33,989 nt of DNA from Ignavibacteriota bacterium. Lineage in GTDB: Bacteria; Bacteroidota; Ignavibacteria; UBA10030; UBA6906. How positions within the stretch are numbered: position 1 is the stretch's first letter; each line of letters starts with the position of its first letter. The position numbers and the translations under genes were made by a program. The notes below the pieces were generated by a model. The model saw only the letters and a list, made by a program, of their open reading frames with translations, did no database searches and was not told the origin of the DNA. This document shows positions 8,322-26,986 of this stretch, one piece after another. The stretch is taken from assembly GCA_003162635.1 (NCBI GenBank), contig PMNE01000103.1:7179-41167 (forward strand), read 5' to 3'.

Positions 8322-8354
8322 AGCCGGAACCAGCACAGAATCGGAGTGCCGAAT

Positions 8355-9683
8355 ATGAAAACCAGGGGATCTCTTCTTGTCTCCCTCTTGCTTGTTTTCC
8401 TTCTCCTTCCGCCGCCGGCCGACGCGGGCGGACATGCGAATGCTTCTTCTTCCGATGCGCAGAGAGATGGAGACAAAGACCACATTGACCTGCAATCGGA
8501 CAGCACCGGCACTCTCCCGGTCTTCGTCGCCGAAGCGTTGGCAGGGAGCCCCCGCCTCCAGGCGGCCCGCACCCGGGCAGAAGGTGCCGAATCGAAAATC
8601 GCGCAGACGGGTGCGTGGGATGACCCGCAAGTCGGTGTCGAGTTTTTCGCCACGCCGGTGACGTCGGCCAACCCGTTTCGCGACGGAATGGAAACCGATT
8701 ACTTCGTTCAACAGATGATCCCCTTGTTTGGAAAGAAGGGGCTGATGAGCGAAGCTGCCTCGGCGGCGGCACGCATGGAAGGGCAGACAACCGCTATGGC
8801 CGAGCGGGACCTTGTCGTTGAAGTCAAGAGGGCGTATGCAATGCTCTATGCTGCGCAGAAGAAACTGGAGATCAACGCGGAGATCCGGCGTCTTCTCGTA
8901 CAGATCGCGGAATCCGCACGTGAGAAATACAGCGTGGGCGCCGTCTCGCAGGCAGACGTCCTGAAGGCCGAAGTGGAACTGGAGAAGCTCCAGAACGAAC
9001 GAAACGAGCTCGGGCAGGAACGTGAGAACGCCGCTGCAATGCTCAATGCACTGCGAGGAGTCCCTGCCGGGAGGATCGTCGGCCGTGTGGCCGAGCCCCC
9101 CCTCGTAAAGGTTGCACTCTCCGTGGAAGACCTGACCGCTGATGCATTGGCAAACAGGCCGGAGATCCTCGGGATGAACGAGCAGCTTGCGATGAACAGA
9201 GTGGATGCGACTGCGACCGACCGCGAGAAACTTCCCGACCTCATGGTGAGGGGGACGTACAAGAAGATGACGGAGGGGACCGATCAGTGGGCGGCGATGT
9301 TCAGCATCAACGTACCGATCGCCCCATGGTCGGCGGGAAAATACTCGGGGAAGAGCGAGGAGCGCGCACTCGCGGCCCGGGCGACCGAGCAGTCGCTGGC
9401 CGACATGAGGTACATGGTGCAGGCGGAAGTGCGCGATGCATGGGGAAAGACATCGGCGCGGTGGGAAGAACTGGCGCGGTTCAGGGAGTCCATCCTCCCG
9501 CGGGCCGAGCAATCGCTTCGGTCGGATCTGACCGCCTTTAAGACAAACGGCGTGGATTTCCTTTCCCTCCTCGAGAGCTTTCGCATGCTGCAAATGCTGA
9601 AAATGGAAGAGGCCATGCTCGTCGGCGAATATATCACAAACGTTGCGCAGCTTGAAAGAGCTGTGGGGAGGGATCTGCAATGA
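8355..9683 (+). CDS. TolC-family outer membrane efflux protein (CusC/CzcC-like)
   Basis: The outer-membrane channel of the tripartite metal efflux pump. A signal peptide (MKTRGSLLVSLLLVFLLLPP, cut near PADA) is followed by two outer-membrane-efflux repeats rich in long helices. Family features are the early LPVFVAEALAGSPRLQAAR segment, QTGAWDDPQVGVEF, EVKRAYAMLYAAQKKLEI, the GAVSQADVLKAEVELEKLQNE helix and the second-half VQAEVRDAWGKTSARWEEL. The start at 8355 is preferred over GTG at 8346 because GGAG sits 8 bases upstream and the signal peptide then begins directly. At 442 residues it is full length. Its stop overlaps the start of the adaptor gene (ATGA), indicating translational coupling. 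No lipobox is seen, unlike E. coli CusC. Confidence 0.92.
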   Translation: MKTRGSLLVSLLLVFLLLPPPADAGGHANASSSDAQRDGDKDHIDLQSDSTGTLPVFVAEALAGSPRLQAARTRAEGAESKIAQTGAWDDPQVGVEFFATPVTSANPFRDGMETDYFVQQMIPLFGKKGLMSEAASAAARMEGQTTAMAERDLVVEVKRAYAMLYAAQKKLEINAEIRRLLVQIAESAREKYSVGAVSQADVLKAEVELEKLQNERNELGQERENAAAMLNALRGVPAGRIVGRVAEPPLVKVALSVEDLTADALANRPEILGMNEQLAMNRVDATATDREKLPDLMVRGTYKKMTEGTDQWAAMFSINVPIAPWSAGKYSGKSEERALAARATEQSLADMRYMVQAEVRDAWGKTSARWEELARFRESILPRAEQSLRSDLTAFKTNGVDFLSLLESFRMLQMLKMEEAMLVGEYITNVAQLERAVGRDLQ

Positions 9684-11254
9684 CTTTCATGAAATCCATC
9701 ATTCTGTTGTTTGTTGCTGCGCTCACGCTCACCGTCGCTGGATGCACTCGTGGAACCTCCGGTGCACCCGATCAGGGCCGGACATCGACGCAGGACCAGC
9801 TCGCGGAGGAATACTATACATGTCCGATGCATCCCTCGGTGCGAAGCGACAAACCCGGGGCCTGCCCGATCTGCGGCATGGCGCTTGTCAAGAGGCGCGA
9901 CGAACCGGAGAGGACAGCGGCCGAGCTGTCGTCACTGAGGGAAGTCAGTCTCTCGCCATCCCAGCGTGTGATGGCCAATGTTGCCACGGAGCCGGTACGG
10001 CGGATGAATCTTGTCCACGCCATACGGAGCGTGGGGGTGATCGACGAGGCTGAGCCCCTGCAGGCGAAGGTTGCCGCTCGATTCCATGGAAGGATTGAGA
10101 AGCTCTATGCGAATTCCACCGGGGTTGCGGTGAAAAAAGGCCAGCCCCTCTTTGATTTGTACAGCCCCGATCTCGTCACTGCGAGTCGGGAGTATGTGCT
10201 CGCATTGCAGGCGCAGGAGGGTGCGGGGGAGGGGACATCCGGCGCGCAGAATGCCGGCATGGCCGCAGCCGCAAGGGAACGCCTGTTGGTACATTTCGGG
10301 ATGACGGCACGGCAGATCGAACGCCTGGCCGAATCCAGGGAAGGAAACTCGACCGTCACGTTCTTCTCGCCCATCAGCGGAACGGTGGTGGCGAAAGATG
10401 TCCAGGAAGGGCAATACGTGGACGAAGGGATGGTTCTCTACCAGGTCGCAGATCTGTCGCGAGTGTGGGCGTACCTCGACGTGTATGAACGGGATCAGCG
10501 GTTCGTCGCACCGGGCCAGACAGTCGTCCTCGCTGCGGATGCATTCCCGGGTGAGGAATTCGGCGGCCGCGTATCGTTTGTCGATCCCATCGTTACTCCT
10601 CAATCGAGGACAGTGCGCATCCGGGTGGAACTCGGGAACGCCGGAGGAAAGCTCAAGCCGCAGATGTACGTCCGGGGGACGATCGAAGTACCCGTGGGAA
10701 ACTCACTTGTCGTGCCGGAAACGGCGATTCTTGCCACGGGGTTGCGCGATGTTGCGTGGGTGGAAGTGAAACCAAACGTGTTTGAGCCGCGCGATGTCGT
10801 TGTGGGAGTGCGCGATGACGGCGGAGCGCAGATTCTGACGGGGCTGCACGAAGGGGAGATGGTGGCTACGTCGGGAGGATTTCTCCTGGACTCGGAAAGC
10901 CAATTGCAGCACCCCGGCGGACGGACGGAACCAGGTGCGGCCCGACCCGTGACCCCCACGCTATTGAAGGAGAAGCCGACGGCGGCGCCGGGGTTCAGGA
11001 AGATCTTTATCGACGTCAACGGGGGCTTCGTGCCGGACACCGTGAGGGTGAAGAAAGGGGAAACCGTCCTGTTGGAATTCCACCGTGAGAAGGAATCGGG
11101 ATGCATTGAAGAAGTGGTCTTTCCGGGACTGAAGATTCGGAAACCGCTCGCGGTGGAAAAGACCACGGCATTCAGGATCTCACCGCAGAAAAGGGGCGAG
11201 ATTCCGTTCGAATGCGGGATGGGCATGGTCAGAGGGATAGTCGTCGTCGAATAA
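9680..11254 (+). CDS. cusB: CusB-type RND adaptor lipoprotein with N-terminal heavy-metal domain and C-terminal cupredoxin-like domain
   Basis: This 524-residue periplasmic adaptor links the inner-membrane pump to the outer-membrane channel. In order: signal peptide with lipobox VAGC (C22); a heavy-metal-binding domain at about 46-71 with the pattern YTCPMHP...PGACPICGM (C48, H51, C62, C65); the membrane-fusion barrel and lipoyl-like parts (RFHGRIEKLY, VKKGQPLFDLYSPDL, FFSPISGTVV, EGQYVDEGMVLYQVADLS); and from about 436 a separate domain (VKKGETVLLEF, GCIEEVVFPG, FECGMGMVRG) that matches the cupredoxin_1/EfeO-type fold with C512, M514 and M516 as candidate copper ligands. The N-terminal domain is common in this family; the C-terminal cupredoxin fusion is less so. 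Its start overlaps the stop of the channel gene, and the CusA gene follows after 27 bases. Confidence 0.93.
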   Translation: MTFMKSIILLFVAALTLTVAGCTRGTSGAPDQGRTSTQDQLAEEYYTCPMHPSVRSDKPGACPICGMALVKRRDEPERTAAELSSLREVSLSPSQRVMANVATEPVRRMNLVHAIRSVGVIDEAEPLQAKVAARFHGRIEKLYANSTGVAVKKGQPLFDLYSPDLVTASREYVLALQAQEGAGEGTSGAQNAGMAAAARERLLVHFGMTARQIERLAESREGNSTVTFFSPISGTVVAKDVQEGQYVDEGMVLYQVADLSRVWAYLDVYERDQRFVAPGQTVVLAADAFPGEEFGGRVSFVDPIVTPQSRTVRIRVELGNAGGKLKPQMYVRGTIEVPVGNSLVVPETAILATGLRDVAWVEVKPNVFEPRDVVVGVRDDGGAQILTGLHEGEMVATSGGFLLDSESQLQHPGGRTEPGAARPVTPTLLKEKPTAAPGFRKIFIDVNGGFVPDTVRVKKGETVLLEFHREKESGCIEEVVFPGLKIRKPLAVEKTTAFRISPQKRGEIPFECGMGMVRGIVVVE

Positions 11255-11281
11255 AGACGCGCCGATCAACGGGAGACATCC

Positions 11282-14200
11282 ATGATAGAGAGAATAATCG
11301 ATTTCTCCGCACGCAATAAGTTCATCGTCATCCTCTTCTACCTGTGTGTCGTCGGATGGGGGATCTGGTCGGTGGTACACACGCCGCTCGATGCAATCCC
11401 TGATCTGTCCGAGAACCAGGTGATCGTCTATACGGAGTGGATGGGAAGGTCACCGCAGCTCGTCGAGGATCAGGTCACGTTTCCGCTTGTCACCGCTCTT
11501 CAAGGGTTGCCTCAGGTATCCGCCGTCAGGGCGCAATCGATGTTCGGGATGTCCTTCATTTATATCATCTTCGATGAAGCGACCGACCTGTATTGGGCGC
11601 GGAGCCGCGTTCTCGAGAAGCTCTCCACCGTCCAGACCGCCCTCCCGCAAGGAGCACGCATGGAGCTCGGCCCCGACGGAACCGGTGTGGGACACGTTTT
11701 CTGGTACACATTGGAGGGGAAATATGATCTCGGGACGCTCCGGGCGACTCAGGACTGGTACGTGAAGTTACACCTTCAGGGAGTGGAAGGAGTTGCCGAG
11801 GTCGCCTCGGTGGGCGGGTACATCCGTCAGTATCAGGTGGACGTTGATCCGAATAGGATGAAGGGATACGGCATTACCCTTGCGACGATCCGGAATGCTG
11901 TCATGCGATCCAACAATGATGTAGGGGGAAAGATTCTCGAAGTGTCGGACGCCGAGTATTTTGTCCGGGGGCAGGGCTATATCCGGTCGACGAGGGATAT
12001 CGAAGAGATCGTGGTCGGAACCGGGCCGAACGGGGTCCCTGTGACCATTCGAAGCATCGGGACCGTGCAGCTTGGGGGTGATATCCGCCGCGGTTCCATT
12101 GAAAAGGACGGAAAAGGACAGGTCGTGGGGGGGATCGTCGTCATGCGGTACGGGGAGAATGCGAAGGCGGTCATCGACCGGGTGAAGCAGAAGATCGTGG
12201 AGATCACGCCCGGTCTTCCCCCGGGCATGGAAATCAAGACCGCATATGATAGAAGCGACATTATCATGGCGTCAATCCAAACGTTGAAAAGCACGCTCGT
12301 GGAAGAGGCGATCGTCGTCAGCATTGTCGTCTTTCTCTTTCTCCTTCATTTTCGGAGTGTTCTCCGGATTATCATTGAGATACCTGTCGCCGTCCTCATT
12401 GCATTCATCTGCATGAAGGCGTTCGGGATTACCTCCAACATCATGTCGCTGGGAGGGATTGCCATCGCCATCGGTGTCATTGTGGACGCATCCATCGTGC
12501 TTGTCGAGAACGCCTACCGGAATGTCGCCCGGGCGCAGGAGACCAAGGGGACGTTGACCAGGGAGGACTTCATTGAAATTTCCATCGTTTCCGCGAAGCA
12601 GGTTGGCCGGCCCATTTTCTTTGCTGTTGCGATCATGGTTGTTTCCTTCCTCCCCGTGTTCCTGCTCGAGGGACAGGAGGGAAAACTATTTCGCCCGCTT
12701 GCGTTCACCAAGACTTTTGTTTTGGGCGGGTCCGCCATCATCGCCATCACGCTGGTTCCCGTGCTCATGGTCATGCTGACGAGGGGAAGATTTCGGCGCG
12801 ACGGGGAGAATCCGCTCACACGCTTCCTTCATTGGCTTTACGAACCGGTCATTCGCTGGGTTTTGAAGTACCGCAAGACGGCGATCGCGCTGAATGTTGT
12901 CGCGCTTCTGGTCACCATACCGATGATCATGAACATGGGTTCAGAATTCATGCCGCCGCTGGATGAAGGAAGTCTGCTTTTCATGCCGGTGGCGCTCCCC
13001 TCCGCCTCCATCACGGAAGTCAACCGGATCGTCCAGGTGCAGGACGCAATCATCATGACCGTCCCCGAGGTCGAACAGGTGCTGGGGAAGGTGGGAAAGG
13101 CCGAAACGTCGACCGATCCCGCGCCGGTCAGCATGATCGAGTCGATCGTGCTCTTGAAACCAAAGTCCCAGTGGCGCGCAGGGATCACGAAGAACGACAT
13201 TATCGCCGAACTCGATGCGAAGCTGCAGATGCCGGGCGTCCGGAACGGATGGACGCAGCCGATCATCAACAGAATCAACATGCTCTCCACCGGGGTGCGG
13301 ACGGACCTCGGGGTGAAGATCTTCGGCAAGGATCTCGACACGCTCGAAGAGCTGGCCATCAAAGCGGAGCAGATCCTCCGTACGGTCCCCGGCGCGGCCG
13401 ACCTCTATGCGGAGCGGACGCAGGGGGGAATGTTCCTCGACATCAAGATTGATCGCGAGGCAATTGCGCGCTACGGGATTAACGTGGGGGATGTGCAGGA
13501 CGTGATCGAGACAGCCATCGGCGGGGAGAACATCGGCACGGTCATCGAGGGCCGTGAGAGGTTTCCGATCCGTGTCCGGTACGAACGGGAATGGCGCGGG
13601 AACGTCGAACAGCTCAAGGATCTGCTTGTGCCTGTTCCACAGATGGTTGATCCCGTCATGCGGGCGGTTTCTGCGCAGGGGTTTGTGCCCCTGACGCAAT
13701 TGGCGCAGATCTCCGTGACGCACGGTCCGCCGATGATCTCGAGCGAAAACGCGCAACTCCGATCGATCGTCTTCCTCAACGTGCGGGGGAGGGATATGGG
13801 AGGATTTGTCCATGACGCGAGAGAGACGTTGGACAAGGGGCTTCAGCTCCCGCAGGGATACACTCTCCAGTGGAGCGGCCAATGGGAGAACCATCTCAGA
13901 GCCACGAAGCGTCTGGAGATCCTCATGCCGGCGGTCTTTCTGATCATTTTCGTCATGCTGTACCTGACGACGAAAGACTTTGCGGAAGCGGGTACCGTCA
14001 TGCTCTCCGTTCCGTTCGCCCTCATTGGCGGCGTGTACCTGATCTATTTCCTCGGGTACAATTTCTCGGTGGCCGTCTGGGTCGGATTCATCGCCTTGTA
14101 CGGCGTTGCGGTCCAGACAGGGCTCGTCATGGTCGTCTATCTGCACGAGGCGTTGGACCGGCGCCTGCGCGATCACCAGCTCGGCAAGCGGGGGCCCATC

Positions 14201-14491
14201 ACCGCGCAGGACATTTTCGATGCAGCAATCGAGGGATCGGTTCTGCGGTTGCGGCCGAAAGTGATGACAGTTGGAACTGCCCTCCTCGGTCTTCTTCCCA
14301 TTATGTGGAGCAAGGGAGCGGGGGCCGATATCATGAAGCCCATTGCCGCTCCCATGATCGGCGGATTGTTGACATCGACGGTCCACGTTCTCGTGGTCAC
14401 CCCCGTCCTTTTTACTTATATGAAGCTGCACGCGCTCAAAAAGGGGACTCTGAAGATCTCCCAAATGGCCAATTGGATGAAAGAAGGATGA
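11282..14491 (+). CDS. cusA: CusA/CzcA-family heavy-metal RND efflux pump, Cu(I)/Ag(I) type
   Basis: A 1069-residue inner-membrane proton-driven pump with the usual plan of two sets of six transmembrane helices and two large periplasmic loops. Family motifs include RNKFIVILFY at the N-terminus, TPLDAIPDLSENQV, the TM4 proton-relay segment GVIVDASIVLVENAYRN (D402, E409) and LPVFLLEGQEGKLFRPL. Copper/silver specificity is supported by Met at 568 (LLFMP), 618 (APVSM) and 667 (NRINMLST). Their spacing, 50 and 49 residues, equals that of the three methionines that bind metal in E. coli CusA (573, 623, 672). GGGAGA lies 5 bases before the ATG. The gene follows the adaptor by 27 bases and precedes a small secreted Cys-rich protein. 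Confidence 0.96.
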   Translation: MIERIIDFSARNKFIVILFYLCVVGWGIWSVVHTPLDAIPDLSENQVIVYTEWMGRSPQLVEDQVTFPLVTALQGLPQVSAVRAQSMFGMSFIYIIFDEATDLYWARSRVLEKLSTVQTALPQGARMELGPDGTGVGHVFWYTLEGKYDLGTLRATQDWYVKLHLQGVEGVAEVASVGGYIRQYQVDVDPNRMKGYGITLATIRNAVMRSNNDVGGKILEVSDAEYFVRGQGYIRSTRDIEEIVVGTGPNGVPVTIRSIGTVQLGGDIRRGSIEKDGKGQVVGGIVVMRYGENAKAVIDRVKQKIVEITPGLPPGMEIKTAYDRSDIIMASIQTLKSTLVEEAIVVSIVVFLFLLHFRSVLRIIIEIPVAVLIAFICMKAFGITSNIMSLGGIAIAIGVIVDASIVLVENAYRNVARAQETKGTLTREDFIEISIVSAKQVGRPIFFAVAIMVVSFLPVFLLEGQEGKLFRPLAFTKTFVLGGSAIIAITLVPVLMVMLTRGRFRRDGENPLTRFLHWLYEPVIRWVLKYRKTAIALNVVALLVTIPMIMNMGSEFMPPLDEGSLLFMPVALPSASITEVNRIVQVQDAIIMTVPEVEQVLGKVGKAETSTDPAPVSMIESIVLLKPKSQWRAGITKNDIIAELDAKLQMPGVRNGWTQPIINRINMLSTGVRTDLGVKIFGKDLDTLEELAIKAEQILRTVPGAADLYAERTQGGMFLDIKIDREAIARYGINVGDVQDVIETAIGGENIGTVIEGRERFPIRVRYEREWRGNVEQLKDLLVPVPQMVDPVMRAVSAQGFVPLTQLAQISVTHGPPMISSENAQLRSIVFLNVRGRDMGGFVHDARETLDKGLQLPQGYTLQWSGQWENHLRATKRLEILMPAVFLIIFVMLYLTTKDFAEAGTVMLSVPFALIGGVYLIYFLGYNFSVAVWVGFIALYGVAVQTGLVMVVYLHEALDRRLRDHQLGKRGPITAQDIFDAAIEGSVLRLRPKVMTVGTALLGLLPIMWSKGAGADIMKPIAAPMIGGLLTSTVHVLVVTPVLFTYMKLHALKKGTLKISQMANWMKEG

Positions 14492-22217: not shown

Positions 22218-24416
22218 ATGCACACCACTGCCATTGTCGACGACGTTTACAGGGTAATCTTCACCGATCACCACGATCCCTTTGCAGTGCTCGGTCCCCA
22301 TCTTCTGGACGGGGACCGGCTTGCCATTCGCTCCTTCCTTCCCGGCGCCGAAAACGCCGCCATCCTGTGCGAAGGGGGGAAGTACAAGGGGAAAGAGTTC
22401 GTCATGGAGAAAGTGCACGAACTGGGTTTCTTCGAAGTCGTGATCCCCGCCTGCACCGCTGTCTTCCCGTATCACATTCGCAAGGGGCTCCCCGGAGGTG
22501 ATGTTGAGGAGTTCCACGATTCGTACTCGTTCCTTCCGACCCTGTCCGATGTTGATCTTTATCTCTTTAACGCGGGGGATCATCACCGGATCTACGAGAA
22601 GCTGGGAGCCCATGACATGGAGATCAACGGGATGGGGGGCGTCCAGTTTGCCGTGTGGGCACCGGGCGCGAGAAGCGTCAGCGTGATCGGCGAATTCAAC
22701 CATTGGGACCGCCGCTTCCATGCCATGCGCGTCCTCGGATCCTCGGGGATCTGGGAGATCTTCATCCCCGGTCTGCAGGAGGGAGTGCTGTACAAGTTCC
22801 AGGTCCGGACTCAGAACGGCTTCGTCATGGACAAAGCGGATCCGTACGGGCGCGAGATGGAATTGCGCCCCCGCACGGCTTCGAAAGTGAATTTCCTTCG
22901 CGGCTATGAATGGCACGACAAGGAATGGATGGAGGAGAGAGAAAAGGGAAGGGATCTCGCACGGCCGCTCTCCGCGTACGAGGTTCACCCCGGCTCATGG
23001 CGAAGAGGAGAAGACGGCCGATTCCTCACGTACCACGAGATGGCGGAGCAGCTTGTTCCCTATCTCCTGAAAATGGGATTCACCCATCTGGAACTCCTCC
23101 CCATCATGGAGCATCCCTTCGATGGATCGTGGGGGTACCAGGTGACCGGCTACTTTGCGCCGACGAGCAGATTCGGGAGCCCGTCCGATTTCATGGCATT
23201 GGTCGATTGCTGCCACCAGAACGGGATCGGGGTCATTCTGGATTGGGTGCCGGCGCACTTCCCCAAGGACGCGTACGCGCTGGGGCAGTTCGACGGGACA
23301 CACCTCTACGAGCACGCCGATCCGAGGAAGGGAGAACACCAGGATTGGGGGACGTATATTTTTAATTATGGCAGGCATGAGGTCAAGAATTTCCTGGTGA
23401 GCAATGCCCTCTTCTGGCTGGAGAAATATCATGTGGATGGTTTGAGGATCGATGCGGTCGCCTCCATGCTGTATCTCGATTATTCGCGGAAGCCCGGCGC
23501 ATGGATCCCCAACCAGTACGGCGGACGGGAGAATCTGGAGGCGATCGAGTTCCTCAAATGCATGAACAGCGTGGTCCATCAGTACTATCCCGGCGTCATG
23601 ACCATCGCTGAAGAATCCACGGCGTGGCCGGGGGTGACCAACACGGTGGAGAAGGGGGGATTGGGATTCGATCTCAAGTGGAACATGGGCTGGATGCACG
23701 ATATTCTGGAGTATTTCACGAAGGATCCTATTCATCGCGCGCATCATCATCACAACCTGACTTTTGTTCTTCTGTACGCCTTTACGGAAAAATTCATGCT
23801 CCCGCTGTCGCACGATGAGGTTGTCCATGGGAAGGGTTCCCTTCTCGGGAAGATGCCGGGCGACCTCTGGCAGAAATTCGCCAACTGCCGGCTCCTTTTT
23901 TCCCTGATGTGGGCCTTCCCCGGCAAGAAGCTCCTGTTCATGGGAGGGGAATTCGCCCAATGGGACGAATGGAACCACGAGAAGAGCATCGATTGGAGTC
24001 TCCTGAAGTACGACACCCACCGGGGTGTCCATCTCCTGATGGAGGAGCTTGGGAGACTGTATGGGAAGGAGCGTGCTCTCTATGAGGTTGATTTCCACTA
24101 CAGCGGCTTTGAATGGGTGGACTTTCAGGATGCAGCGAGCAGCGTGATTTCTTTCGACCGAAAATCGCGCGACGGGCAGGAGACGATCACGGCCGTTTTC
24201 AATTTCACGCCCGTTCCCCGCACCGGCCACCGTGTCGGGGTCCGCTTCCCCGGGTCGTACGCCGAGATCTTCAACAGCGACAGCACCTGCTACGGCGGGA
24301 GCAACATGGGAAACTACGGAGAAGTGCAGGCGGAAGCAGTCCCGTCAGACGGCAGGGATTACTCGGTGCTCCTGACGCTGCCTCCCCTTGGCGCACTCTA
24401 TCTGAAGCACAAGTAG
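22218..24416 (+). CDS. glgB: 1,4-alpha-glucan branching enzyme
   Basis: A 732-residue GH13 enzyme that makes alpha-1,6 branches in glycogen. It has the long form: an N1 domain ([12 protein letters not shown] near 17-28), a CBM48 domain ([20 protein letters not shown] near 144-163), the catalytic barrel and a C-terminal beta domain. Catalytic residues are D412 in [19 protein letters not shown]465 in [12 protein letters not shown] and the stabilising D533 in [12 protein letters not shown]; the spacing between the first two (53) equals that of E. coli GlgB. The GEFAQWDEW motif follows. It starts 36 bases after the lipoprotein gene. No other glycogen gene is in the window. Confidence 0.97.
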
Positions 24417-24466
24417 ATGAATTTATGCCTTTTTCCCCACCTCTCTTCTTTCCGACGGGGAGGACG

Positions 24467-24496
24467 GGGGAACCGGCTTCCCCTGCCCGGTGTTTT
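24467..24496 (+). terminator. possible terminator after glgB
   Basis: GGGGAA-CCGGC-TTCCCC (24467-24483) forms a 6-bp stem 50 bases past the stop; a short TTTT lies seven bases later. The separation makes it weak. A second GC hairpin, GGCGCGG-CCT-CCGCGCC (24514-24530), follows without a T-run. The rest of the 291-bp spacer up to 24707 shows no gene. Confidence 0.35.
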
Positions 24497-24707
24497 CAAC
24501 TCACCTCCACGCTGGCGCGGCCTCCGCGCCAAAATGAGCATAAACGCTTCGATTGCGAGATCGTTCCAATACCGGTCCGGCTCCGAACCATCTCCATCCG
24601 CCGGTGACGTCTTCACGGAAAGAGCAAAAGGACCCATTGTTGGTTGATTGTACCTGCTGCATGATTGATGGTGAAACGGTCATATCGTCGAAAACGGTTT
24701 AATTGCC

Positions 24708-25640
24708 ATGTGTGCTTTGGTGCGGAAGACAATTCTGTCGACGGCGGATATCGCCCGGCTCTTCAATGTCACGGAGACAACGGTGAAGCGCTGGGCAGAT
24801 GAGGGGACGTTACGATGCCAGAAGACGCCGGGCGGCCACAGAAAATTTGAGATGAGGAGCGTGGTCGAGTTTGCCGACCGGAACAATTTCGAACCCATCG
24901 GGACGCTCGCTATTCCGGAAGACGACCGCCTTGCCCAGCGGATTCAGGTGGCTGTCCTGGGGAGAGATTTCTCGGAGCTCGTGGCGGCGTTCGTGGAGAA
25001 AGTCCTGTCGCCGGAGGGGACGGATCTGGTGGCATTCCTCTCGTACCTCTACCAGCACCACGTCGCGCTGTGGGAACTGTACGACCTGATCCTCGCTCCC
25101 GGTATGGCCGAGATTGGCGTGCAGTGGAAGCGGGGAGAGATCGGCATCAGCCATGAACACCGCGCGTCGTACGGTATCCTCGATGCGATCGCGAAGTTGC
25201 AGGCGCAGGTTCACACGAAACCGCCGAACGGACTTTCTGCACTATGTGCATGCCTTGGGGATGAAGAACACGAGATCGGGCTCCGTTGCGTCTCGTACCT
25301 TCTTGAATCGGAGGGCTGGTCGACATGCCATCTCGGCGCCCATGTCCCCCGCGATGCGATGAAGTCCGCCCTCCACGAGATGAGACCGACGATCATTTGC
25401 CTTTCCGCAACGCTGCAGGCGGTGAACGATCATCGCCGCGAGGAACTCGACAGCATCTGCACGGAAGCTCACTTGATCGGTGCCCGCGTTTTCCTCGGGG
25501 GGGGCGGCGCCGGCGCGGTTGCAGCGACGGCGCACGGCGTGGATACATTCTGTTCCACGCTCCATGATTTTGTCACGGCCCTGGAGGCGGTTGAGCGGGA
25601 GCTCGGTCCGGGACAGGGCGAAGAGGAGAGCCGCCAATGA
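24708..25640 (+). CDS. CarH/LitR-like B12-binding HTH regulator (candidate photoreceptor)
   Basis: A 310-residue protein with a MerR/excisionase-type HTH (about 8-50: ADIARLFNVTETTVKRW, TPGGHRKF), a helical cobalamin-cap domain (about 75-165) and a B12-binding Rossmann domain (about 175-300). W140 is followed after exactly nine residues by E150-H151, the Wx9EH signature of AdoCbl-dependent CarH photoreceptors. The lower axial ligand motif is E186-x-H188-xx-G191, and the GGGGAG loop sits at 264-269. In these regulators AdoCbl-bound tetramers repress DNA in the dark and fall apart in light. Odd point: the residue after the Trp, a His that becomes the second Co ligand in Thermus CarH, is K141 here. 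No ribosome site is seen; GTG at 24720 is an alternative start. A VOC protein and a TIGR01777 epimerase lie downstream. Confidence 0.88.
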   Translation: MCALVRKTILSTADIARLFNVTETTVKRWADEGTLRCQKTPGGHRKFEMRSVVEFADRNNFEPIGTLAIPEDDRLAQRIQVAVLGRDFSELVAAFVEKVLSPEGTDLVAFLSYLYQHHVALWELYDLILAPGMAEIGVQWKRGEIGISHEHRASYGILDAIAKLQAQVHTKPPNGLSALCACLGDEEHEIGLRCVSYLLESEGWSTCHLGAHVPRDAMKSALHEMRPTIICLSATLQAVNDHRREELDSICTEAHLIGARVFLGGGGAGAVAATAHGVDTFCSTLHDFVTALEAVERELGPGQGEEESRQ

Positions 25641-25743: not shown

Positions 25744-26058
25744 ATGATGACTTTTGACCACGTTGCGGTGAATGTTGCCGATGTTGCGCGTTCGACGTCC
25801 TGGTATGTGGAGACATTGGGGGCGAAGATACTCTATCAGGATTCCACGTGGGCGTTTCTCGACGCCAACGGCGTCAAGCTTGCATTGACGCTGCCGCAGC
25901 AGCACCCGGGCCATCTTGCATTCGACATCGGTCCCAACCCGTCCCCCGAGTTCCTGGCAAAAGCCAAAAGACACCGGGATGGCAGCCTGTCCCGATACAT
26001 TGTCGACCCGGATGGGAACGCCATCGAGTACATTCACTATCCTCCGGCGGATCGGTGA
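25744..26058 (+). CDS. VOC (glyoxalase/bleomycin-resistance fold) family protein
   Basis: A 104-residue single-module VOC protein: MTFDHVAVNVADVARSTSWY at the N-terminus with the metal-ligand position H6, GAKILYQDSTWAFLDANGVKLAL, PGHLAFDIG in the middle and YIVDPDGNAIEYIHYP at the end. This is the basic fold of glyoxalases and dioxygenases; substrate unknown, and it is distinct in sequence from the methylmalonyl-CoA epimerase at 29014. The start at 25744 (or the adjacent ATG at 25747) has AGGAG 4-7 bases upstream; the frame is open further upstream but without family features. It lies 103 bases after the B12 regulator and 16 bases before the epimerase, so it probably shares their transcript. 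Confidence 0.85.
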   Translation: MMTFDHVAVNVADVARSTSWYVETLGAKILYQDSTWAFLDANGVKLALTLPQQHPGHLAFDIGPNPSPEFLAKAKRHRDGSLSRYIVDPDGNAIEYIHYPPADR

Positions 26059-26074
26059 AACGAAGGGACCGTCG

Positions 26075-26986
26075 ATGAAGATCGTTCTTGCAGGAGGTAC
26101 GGGGTTCATCGGATCGGCGCTCCTGCCGCGACTTGCGGCTGCGGGTCACACTGTCGTCGCGCTGAGCCGTTCGCCGTCGTCGAGAATGCAGGCACTCTCT
26201 CCCGGAATGAGCGTTGCCCCCTGGGATGGTGCGTCAATGGGTGAGTGGGCCTCCCATATTGACGGGGCCGATGCAGTGGTCAACCTGGCCGGTGAGCCTC
26301 TGGCCGCGAAGCGCTGGACGGGAGTTCAAAAGGCGCGTATCCTCCGGAGCCGCATTGATGCAACCCGCATCTTGCGAGAAGCCATTGCCAACGCACGACA
26401 AAAACCTTCTGTCTTTCTTCAGATGTCGGCTGTGGGATACTACGGCGACATTCCGGAAGGGGATGTCAGGGAGGATCATGGACCGGGGAGCGACTTCCTG
26501 GCCCGAACCTGCCAACAATGGGAGTTCGAAGCGTCAGGGATGGTCCCCATGGGTCTGCGACTCGTTGTGCTCCGGCTGGGTGTTGTCCTCGGGGACCATG
26601 GCGGAGCGTTGCAGAAAATGGTCCTTCCCTACAAGCTCTTTCTAGGTGGGGCGATCGGCGGGGGGAGTCAGTGGTTTCCCTGGATCCACAGAGACGATGT
26701 CGCGGGCATCATGATGTTTGCGCTCGAGCGGACCGTGGCTGCAGGTCCCGTCAACGTTGTCGCGCCCGATCTCGTGACGATGAAGACCTTCTGCGCAACG
26801 CTGGGGCAGGTTCTCCACCGTCCCTCGTGGGCTGCTGTCCCGGGCGCGTTGGTACGGGCCGCTCTTGGTGAAATGGCTGATATGCTCCTCACCGGACAGC
26901 GGGTGGTTCCCGCCAGAATCCAGGAATGGGGCTACTCCTTCCGCTATCCAACCCTTCTTTCTGCGCTCACAGACATCCTTGACTGA
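26075..26986 (+). CDS. TIGR01777 family NAD-dependent epimerase (YfcH-like)
   Basis: A 303-residue SDR protein: MKIVLAGGTGFIGSAL with the nucleotide-binding GGTGFIG, then DAVVNLAGEPLAAKRW, the family segment KARILRSRIDATR, QMSAVGYYGD, LRLGVVLGDHGGALQKM, FPWIHRDDVAG and a C-terminal helix with LLTGQRVVPAR. This is the TIGR01777/YfcH (formerly 'SulA-like cell division inhibitor') group, whose substrate is unknown. Members are often found near photolyase and light-response genes, which fits the CarH-like regulator two genes upstream. AAGGGA about 7 bases before the ATG at 26075 can act as the ribosome site. Length is normal for the family. Confidence 0.9.
   Translation: MKIVLAGGTGFIGSALLPRLAAAGHTVVALSRSPSSRMQALSPGMSVAPWDGASMGEWASHIDGADAVVNLAGEPLAAKRWTGVQKARILRSRIDATRILREAIANARQKPSVFLQMSAVGYYGDIPEGDVREDHGPGSDFLARTCQQWEFEASGMVPMGLRLVVLRLGVVLGDHGGALQKMVLPYKLFLGGAIGGGSQWFPWIHRDDVAGIMMFALERTVAAGPVNVVAPDLVTMKTFCATLGQVLHRPSWAAVPGALVRAALGEMADMLLTGQRVVPARIQEWGYSFRYPTLLSALTDILD

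Follow-up and report, generated by a model that had tools for sequence, protein, structure and literature searches.

The B12-photoreceptor signature encoded in this stretch of Ignavibacteriota DNA (33,989 bp, hereafter the window) raises two questions, namely, what follows from the lysine that stands where Thermus CarH (TtCarH) has the histidine ligand of its light state, and what such a regulator would control in a window that, as an earlier sequence-only reading pointed out and as we confirm, harbors no carotenoid gene. The protein, denoted P0001, and its parts are the following.

24708..25640, + strand: predicted CtMerR-type AdoCbl-binding repressor, P0001, 310 aa (ORF, Pfam, alignments, structure model)
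24729..24872, + strand: BldC-like winged helix-turn-helix (HTH), residues 8-55, with R28 and H44 at the aligned positions of BldC Arg30 and His46
24924..25202, + strand: helical cap with W140 (codon 25125-25127), K141 (codon 25128-25130), E150 and H151 (Pfam, alignment, model)
25233..25607, + strand: B12 Rossmann domain with E186-x-H188-xx-G191, G210-xxx-P214, S233-x-T235 and G264-G265

The open reading frame and its Pfam matches (HTH_17, 5e-9; B12-binding_2 cap, 1e-6; B12-binding, 2e-9; all above the curated cut-offs) bear out the originally described architecture of HTH, helical cap and B12 Rossmann domain with W140-x9-E150-H151 and E186-x-H188-xx-G191. The start codon may be GTG 24720 instead of ATG 24708, because several orthologues start at that point. 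The Wx9EH motif, a trait of classic CarH/LitR proteins, is represented by W140, E150 and H151, and the D/ExHx2G/Px41SxT/V...GG B12 motif by E186, H188, G191, S233, T235 and G264-G265, with a last gap of 28 residues versus the quoted 22-27. The residues W140, E150, H151, E186, H188, G210 and P214 are invariant in P0001 and 21 aligned relatives, and thus the signature is not a chance occurrence. In the alignment, the residues that form the dimer salt bridges of TtCarH are not conserved in P0001. A separate set of paralogues (L085, L087, L089, L091, L093) with the same HTH type lacks the Trp, the EH pair and the lower-ligand His; these are probably B12-free regulators, comparable to CarA, in which part of the motif is lost.

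The closest known system is CtMerR of Chloracidobacterium thermophilum (8JBS/8JBT, WP_157850694), a measured AdoCbl-dependent green-light receptor that passes from a dark tetramer to a light monomer (PMC11796333). CtMerR is the best match of P0001 in both sequence and fold: it is the best PDB match (phmmer E 1e-41, compared to 7e-14 for TtCarH), with 33% identity (25% for TtCarH), and the AlphaFold2 model of P0001 (mean pLDDT 86) matches 8JBS with a Z score of 27.9 and 1.9 A over 225 residues, compared to 23.8 for the photocobilins and 18.5 for TtCarH. The two proteins share the domain order, the BldC-like HTH, the W/EH/H/GxxxP residues and a non-His residue at the 132 position, and differ in having, respectively, Arg and Lys at that position and Gly and D185 in GxxH. 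With its BldC-like HTH, cap and B12 domain, and with 8JBS as the nearest structure, P0001 belongs to the CtMerR type. This proximity, together with the invariance of W, EH, H and P214, supports the initial reading of P0001 as a B12- or light-responsive repressor.

The GxxW, EH and GxxxP elements used by SignatureFinder are all present in P0001, whereas the strict GxxH element is replaced by D185-E-E-H188. In CtMerR, the Gly of GxxH makes its contact via the backbone carbonyl (PMC11796333), so this departure probably reflects a limit of the published signature rather than exclusion from the CtMerR branch. Strict GxxH occurs in only 14 of the 59 relatives (P0001 included) with intact W, E, H and H, and therefore, searches using that signature would pass over most such relatives. 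The relatives come mostly from Ignavibacteria/Bacteroidota metagenome-assembled genomes (MAGs), the others being labelled Kryptoniota, Calditrichia, KSB1 and Acidobacteriota. Our literature searches yielded nothing relevant on B12 photoreceptors in Ignavibacteria and nothing on the Chloracidobacterium regulator beyond PMC11796333.

His132 of TtCarH pairs with K141 in an ungapped stretch (VGEAWHRGEIGVAEEH over IGVQWKRGEIGISHEH) in both pairwise and multiple alignments, so the column assignment from which the sequence-only reading proceeded is correct. The tally of this column that it had proposed, carried out on the same 59 intact relatives, gives 11 different residues (E16, A10, S9, Q7, M4, H4, K3, L3, I1, V1, T1), with His in 4 of the 59. 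Within the window's own family, the residues at this position are E, S, Q, A, M and K, and His does not occur. The column entropy is zero for W, E, H and H and 3.06 bits for position 141, which ranks with the most variable positions in the cap. By this measure, lysine 141 is ordinary for the CtMerR branch. Relative to Thermus CarH, it is accurate to speak of a Lys that replaces the His ligand; the description misleads insofar as P0001 falls in a branch where the position is unconstrained, and where, for that reason, a bis-His light state is not expected in most members.

In classic CarH, too, His132, the upper ligand in the light, is a trait of many proteins and not of all (PMC9304148). The equivalent residue is Arg in CtMerR and Gln or Tyr in photocobilins (PMC11796333). 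The photocobilins SasPcob and AbDPcob (8J2W, 8J2Y) resemble P0001 in having a light-responsive B12 domain without His132 but contain a biliverdin domain and no HTH. The solved CtMerR, with its Arg, still switches from tetramer to monomer, so the absence of His implies neither reversibility nor sensing of the B12 level. The TtCarH H132A variant, in turn, does not monomerise after light (PMC11796333), and thus, without His, switching could also be impaired.

The DNA-binding domain sets P0001 apart from classic CarH/LitR (TtCarH, 5C8D/5C8E; myxobacterial CarH, PMC9304148), with which it shares Wx9EH, the ExHxxG B12 motif, the expected role of a dark repressor and relatives linked to carotenoid genes. 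The recognition helix VKRWADEG is BldC-like, and the RxWERRY of the MerR-type HTH of classic CarH/LitR is absent. The BldC HTH model is the best NCBIfam match by E-value; the score for the BldC family (NF033787) is 51.1 bits against a cut-off of 77, and that for the CarH equivalog (NF052513) 51.4 bits against a cut-off of 400. Judging by these profiles, P0001 shares the BldC HTH type, not membership in the BldC family. BldC of Streptomyces (6AMA/6AMK), a protein of 68 residues that, unlike P0001, has no B12 domain, reads head-to-tail 9-bp direct repeats (AT-tract-NNNN-C), its protomers binding AATTXXXX(C) via Arg30 and His46 (PMC5859096). The aligned R28 and H44 of P0001 are invariant in the aligned relatives, and P0001 is predicted to read DNA in the same manner, at a period of 9 bp versus the 11-bp direct repeats (nnnnTnnACAn) of classic CarH/LitR (PMC9304148).

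Tandem repeats of this kind are found upstream of most relatives, usually 10-70 bp ahead of the start codon, in two to five copies near (A/T)CGTGCAAA, (WCGTGCAAA)n; in the register WWWWCGNNC, they fit the AATTXXXX(C) rule of BldC. In many loci, a TTGACA-N17-TATATT-like promoter immediately precedes the repeats, which follow its -10 box, where a repressor would be well placed. The window contains the following site.

24677..24703, + strand: candidate operator composed of three 9-bp direct repeats in tandem, CGGTCATAT CGTCGAAAA CGGTTTAAT, with 4 bp between the last one and the ATG

The three-unit pattern CGNNNWWWWCGNNNWWWWCGNNNWWW is matched perfectly at a single place in the 3.1-Mb genome, 24677-24702 of the window. 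The spacer 24417-24707, suggested earlier as DNA for binding tests, includes this candidate operator. A repeat matrix trained on 51 regulators outside the window's family, with Markov-sampled sequences as the null, places 38 of these 51 above 99% of the null (in-sample); the held-out region upstream of P0001 scores 12.3 bits (p about 0.004), and the top site of the matrix on both strands of the whole window is 24675-24694. The units in the window are degenerate, two of the three lacking C at unit position 5. Other one-mismatch matches in the genome fall within open frames of >200 codons and are mostly low-scoring. In the family loci L032, L034, L035 and L045, no clear repeat immediately precedes the regulator, which may be transcribed there from a gene further upstream. 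A strong repeat, AACGTACAAAACGTACATA, is present in L165 (G009 C32:25248-25266), 53 bp before a lipoprotein-like ORF, possibly marking a further target in that genus.

A strict version of the pattern, WWCGNNCAWWWCGNNCAWW, occurs once in the genome, on contig C103, which is not the contig of the window. The match directly follows TTGACA-N17-TATTAT and precedes an ECF sigma-factor gene by 96 bp, so that repeats occur at two promoters, that of the regulator and that of the sigma factor. At 20 bits, this site is the strongest among those found in the genome, and the locus was not used in building the matrix. Matrix sites with p<0.01 are present at 11 of the 14 scored ECF orthologues of the family and at none of 10 paralogues (~50% identity, other families); the site is conserved across genera. 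The site is also found in G002, is interrupted by Ns in G017, and in G020, which has no close regulator, is degraded together with the -10 box while the sigma gene is kept. Manual counting, with thresholds of at least 50% identity for the regulator and at least 62% for the sigma orthologue and one split copy counted, finds both genes in 15 of the 21 family genomes, the regulator alone in one, the sigma orthologue alone in one and neither gene in four; given the relatedness of the genomes and the gaps in MAGs, this co-occurrence is suggestive only. In five genomes (L192-L194, L197, L198), GGAAC-N17/18-GTTA replaces the sigma-70 box before the repeats at the sigma gene, which hints at sigma autoregulation; the same element precedes the regulator in L033 (7892), making sigma-factor feedback on both genes possible. 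No such ECF-type promoter, as a sign of sigma targets, was found in the window. In function, the system that comes closest is Streptomyces LitR-LitS, where a B12 photoreceptor governs an ECF sigma factor, as predicted for P0001; LitR, however, is described as promoting litS transcription, with sigma-LitS driving crtE (PMC12705666), whereas repression is predicted for P0001, the sigma gene is unlinked and the crt genes are missing.

In the genomic slot of the regulator in the window's family, the gene order is glgB, regulator, TIGR01777 SDR, carboxyltransferase, and the flanking genes in the window are these.

22218..24416, + strand: glgB, conserved left border of the regulator slot (profile match, locus comparison)
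25747..26058, + strand: VOC/glyoxalase-fold small protein downstream of the regulator (Pfam), context only
26066..26986, + strand: TIGR01777 SDR-family oxidoreductase, context only

In most family members, the SDR gene remains in the vicinity of the regulator, whether the carotenoid island is present or not. Further upstream, at 8346-14491, the window encodes an efflux set that consists of an outer-membrane protein, a CusB-like adaptor (heavy-metal-binding and cupredoxin domains) and an AcrB-family pump.

In L035, L036, L040 and L044, the same slot contains a crtI-family desaturase gene before the regulator and a phytoene-synthase-like SQS_PSY gene after it. L035, L036, L040 and L042 have a photolyase there, L035 additionally has a crtD-like and a prenyl-diphosphate-synthase-like gene, and a lycopene cyclase is encoded in L036. 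In the 98%-complete genome analysed here, no crtI-family, crtB-type or FAD_binding_7 photolyase gene was found. The two SQS_PSY matches are HpnC and HpnD, above their cut-offs; we therefore reject the idea that carotenoid genes reside elsewhere in the genome. An intact photolyase and a 40-residue crtB fragment lie beside the regulator in L042 (G007 C208), an island that seems to have been caught while decaying. We infer loss of the carotenoid and photolyase genes from the window's slot as the simpler reading, although they could have been gained in the relatives or be hidden by MAG gaps.

Taken together, these observations make it probable that P0001 is a CtMerR-type AdoCbl photoreceptor that represses both the gene encoding it and the ECF sigma gene, the usual carotenoid targets being absent. 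CtMerR serves as the analogy for how AdoCbl binding, cleavage by green light and oligomer dissociation may proceed. In the dark, AdoCbl would be clamped by the cap (W140, E150, H151) on one side and the Rossmann domain, with H188 as the lower Co ligand, on the other, favouring an oligomer that covers the tandem 9-bp repeats just past the -10 element. Light would break the Co-C bond; with no upper His available from position 141, the photolysed cobalamin would become aquo/hydroxo-ligated and E150 re-oriented, whereupon the oligomer would dissociate and transcription begin. The predicted targets, the P0001 gene itself and the ECF sigma gene on the other contig, would form a two-step circuit, retained even though the carotenoid and photolyase genes of the relatives' slot are missing.

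The missing genes also lend themselves to other explanations. One is that P0001 is a sensor of B12 level or redox state, with AdoCbl tuning repression and light irrelevant in the organism; in its favor are the lack in this genome of FAD_binding_7 photolyase and of the carotenoid genes that we looked for, as well as metabolic neighbors, namely, a methylmalonyl-CoA decarboxylase/propionyl-CoA carboxylase-type gene close by and a methylmalonyl-CoA mutase that adjoins the slot in L036. We regard this as unlikely, given that the Trp and Glu-His over the adenosyl group are invariant, as in proven light receptors, that crtI, crtB and photolyase genes are tied to this regulator in relatives, and that the window contains no cobalamin riboswitch or other Rfam RNA. 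That P0001 is a decaying, now functionless remnant that outlived its carotenoid cluster is very unlikely: the cluster is indeed missing here and present in the same slot of relatives, the neighbor genome G007 retains a crtB fragment and an intact photolyase beside the regulator, and the candidate operator in the window consists of degenerate units, but the ORF is intact with all B12 residues retained, several genera have the regulator without the cluster, and the sigma-gene site is both the strongest found and conserved across genera.

The remaining possibility concerns the lysine itself, which the sequence-only reading took as a hint of a distinct photoproduct, for example, one that is reversible or tuned to the B12 level; nothing in our analysis supports either. 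K141 does align with His132, which speaks for a tuned replacement with, for example, a Lys-ligated photoproduct; yet the variability of the column, the E, S, Q, A and M of the nearest family members and the Arg, Gln or Tyr of proven relatives make such a role extremely improbable, and the 59-member tally leads us to reject Lys as a tuned ligand.

With P0001 thus viewed as a CtMerR-type photoreceptor-repressor, the CtMerR class gains a predicted operator and predicted targets, neither of which we found described for CtMerR in the sections consulted of PMC11796333; the combination of a BldC-type HTH with candidate tandem 9-bp operator repeats upstream of most relatives is new here. A broader proposal, which we advance tentatively and with slightly more doubt than confidence, is that a branch of non-His B12 photoreceptors spans Ignavibacteria and their relatives, falling mostly outside strict GxxH, forming no bis-His state, using BldC-type 9-bp repeats and having an ECF sigma output where carotenoid genes are absent. 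Whether B12 photoreceptors without a His upper ligand switch likewise becomes testable, and a green-light repressor with 9-bp repeats would make a compact optogenetic part distinct from CarH. For the organisms themselves, these findings suggest that light signalling continues via a sigma factor where the carotenoid and photolyase genes are missing; if so, light would set off a sigma-factor programme in lineages without carotenoid genes.
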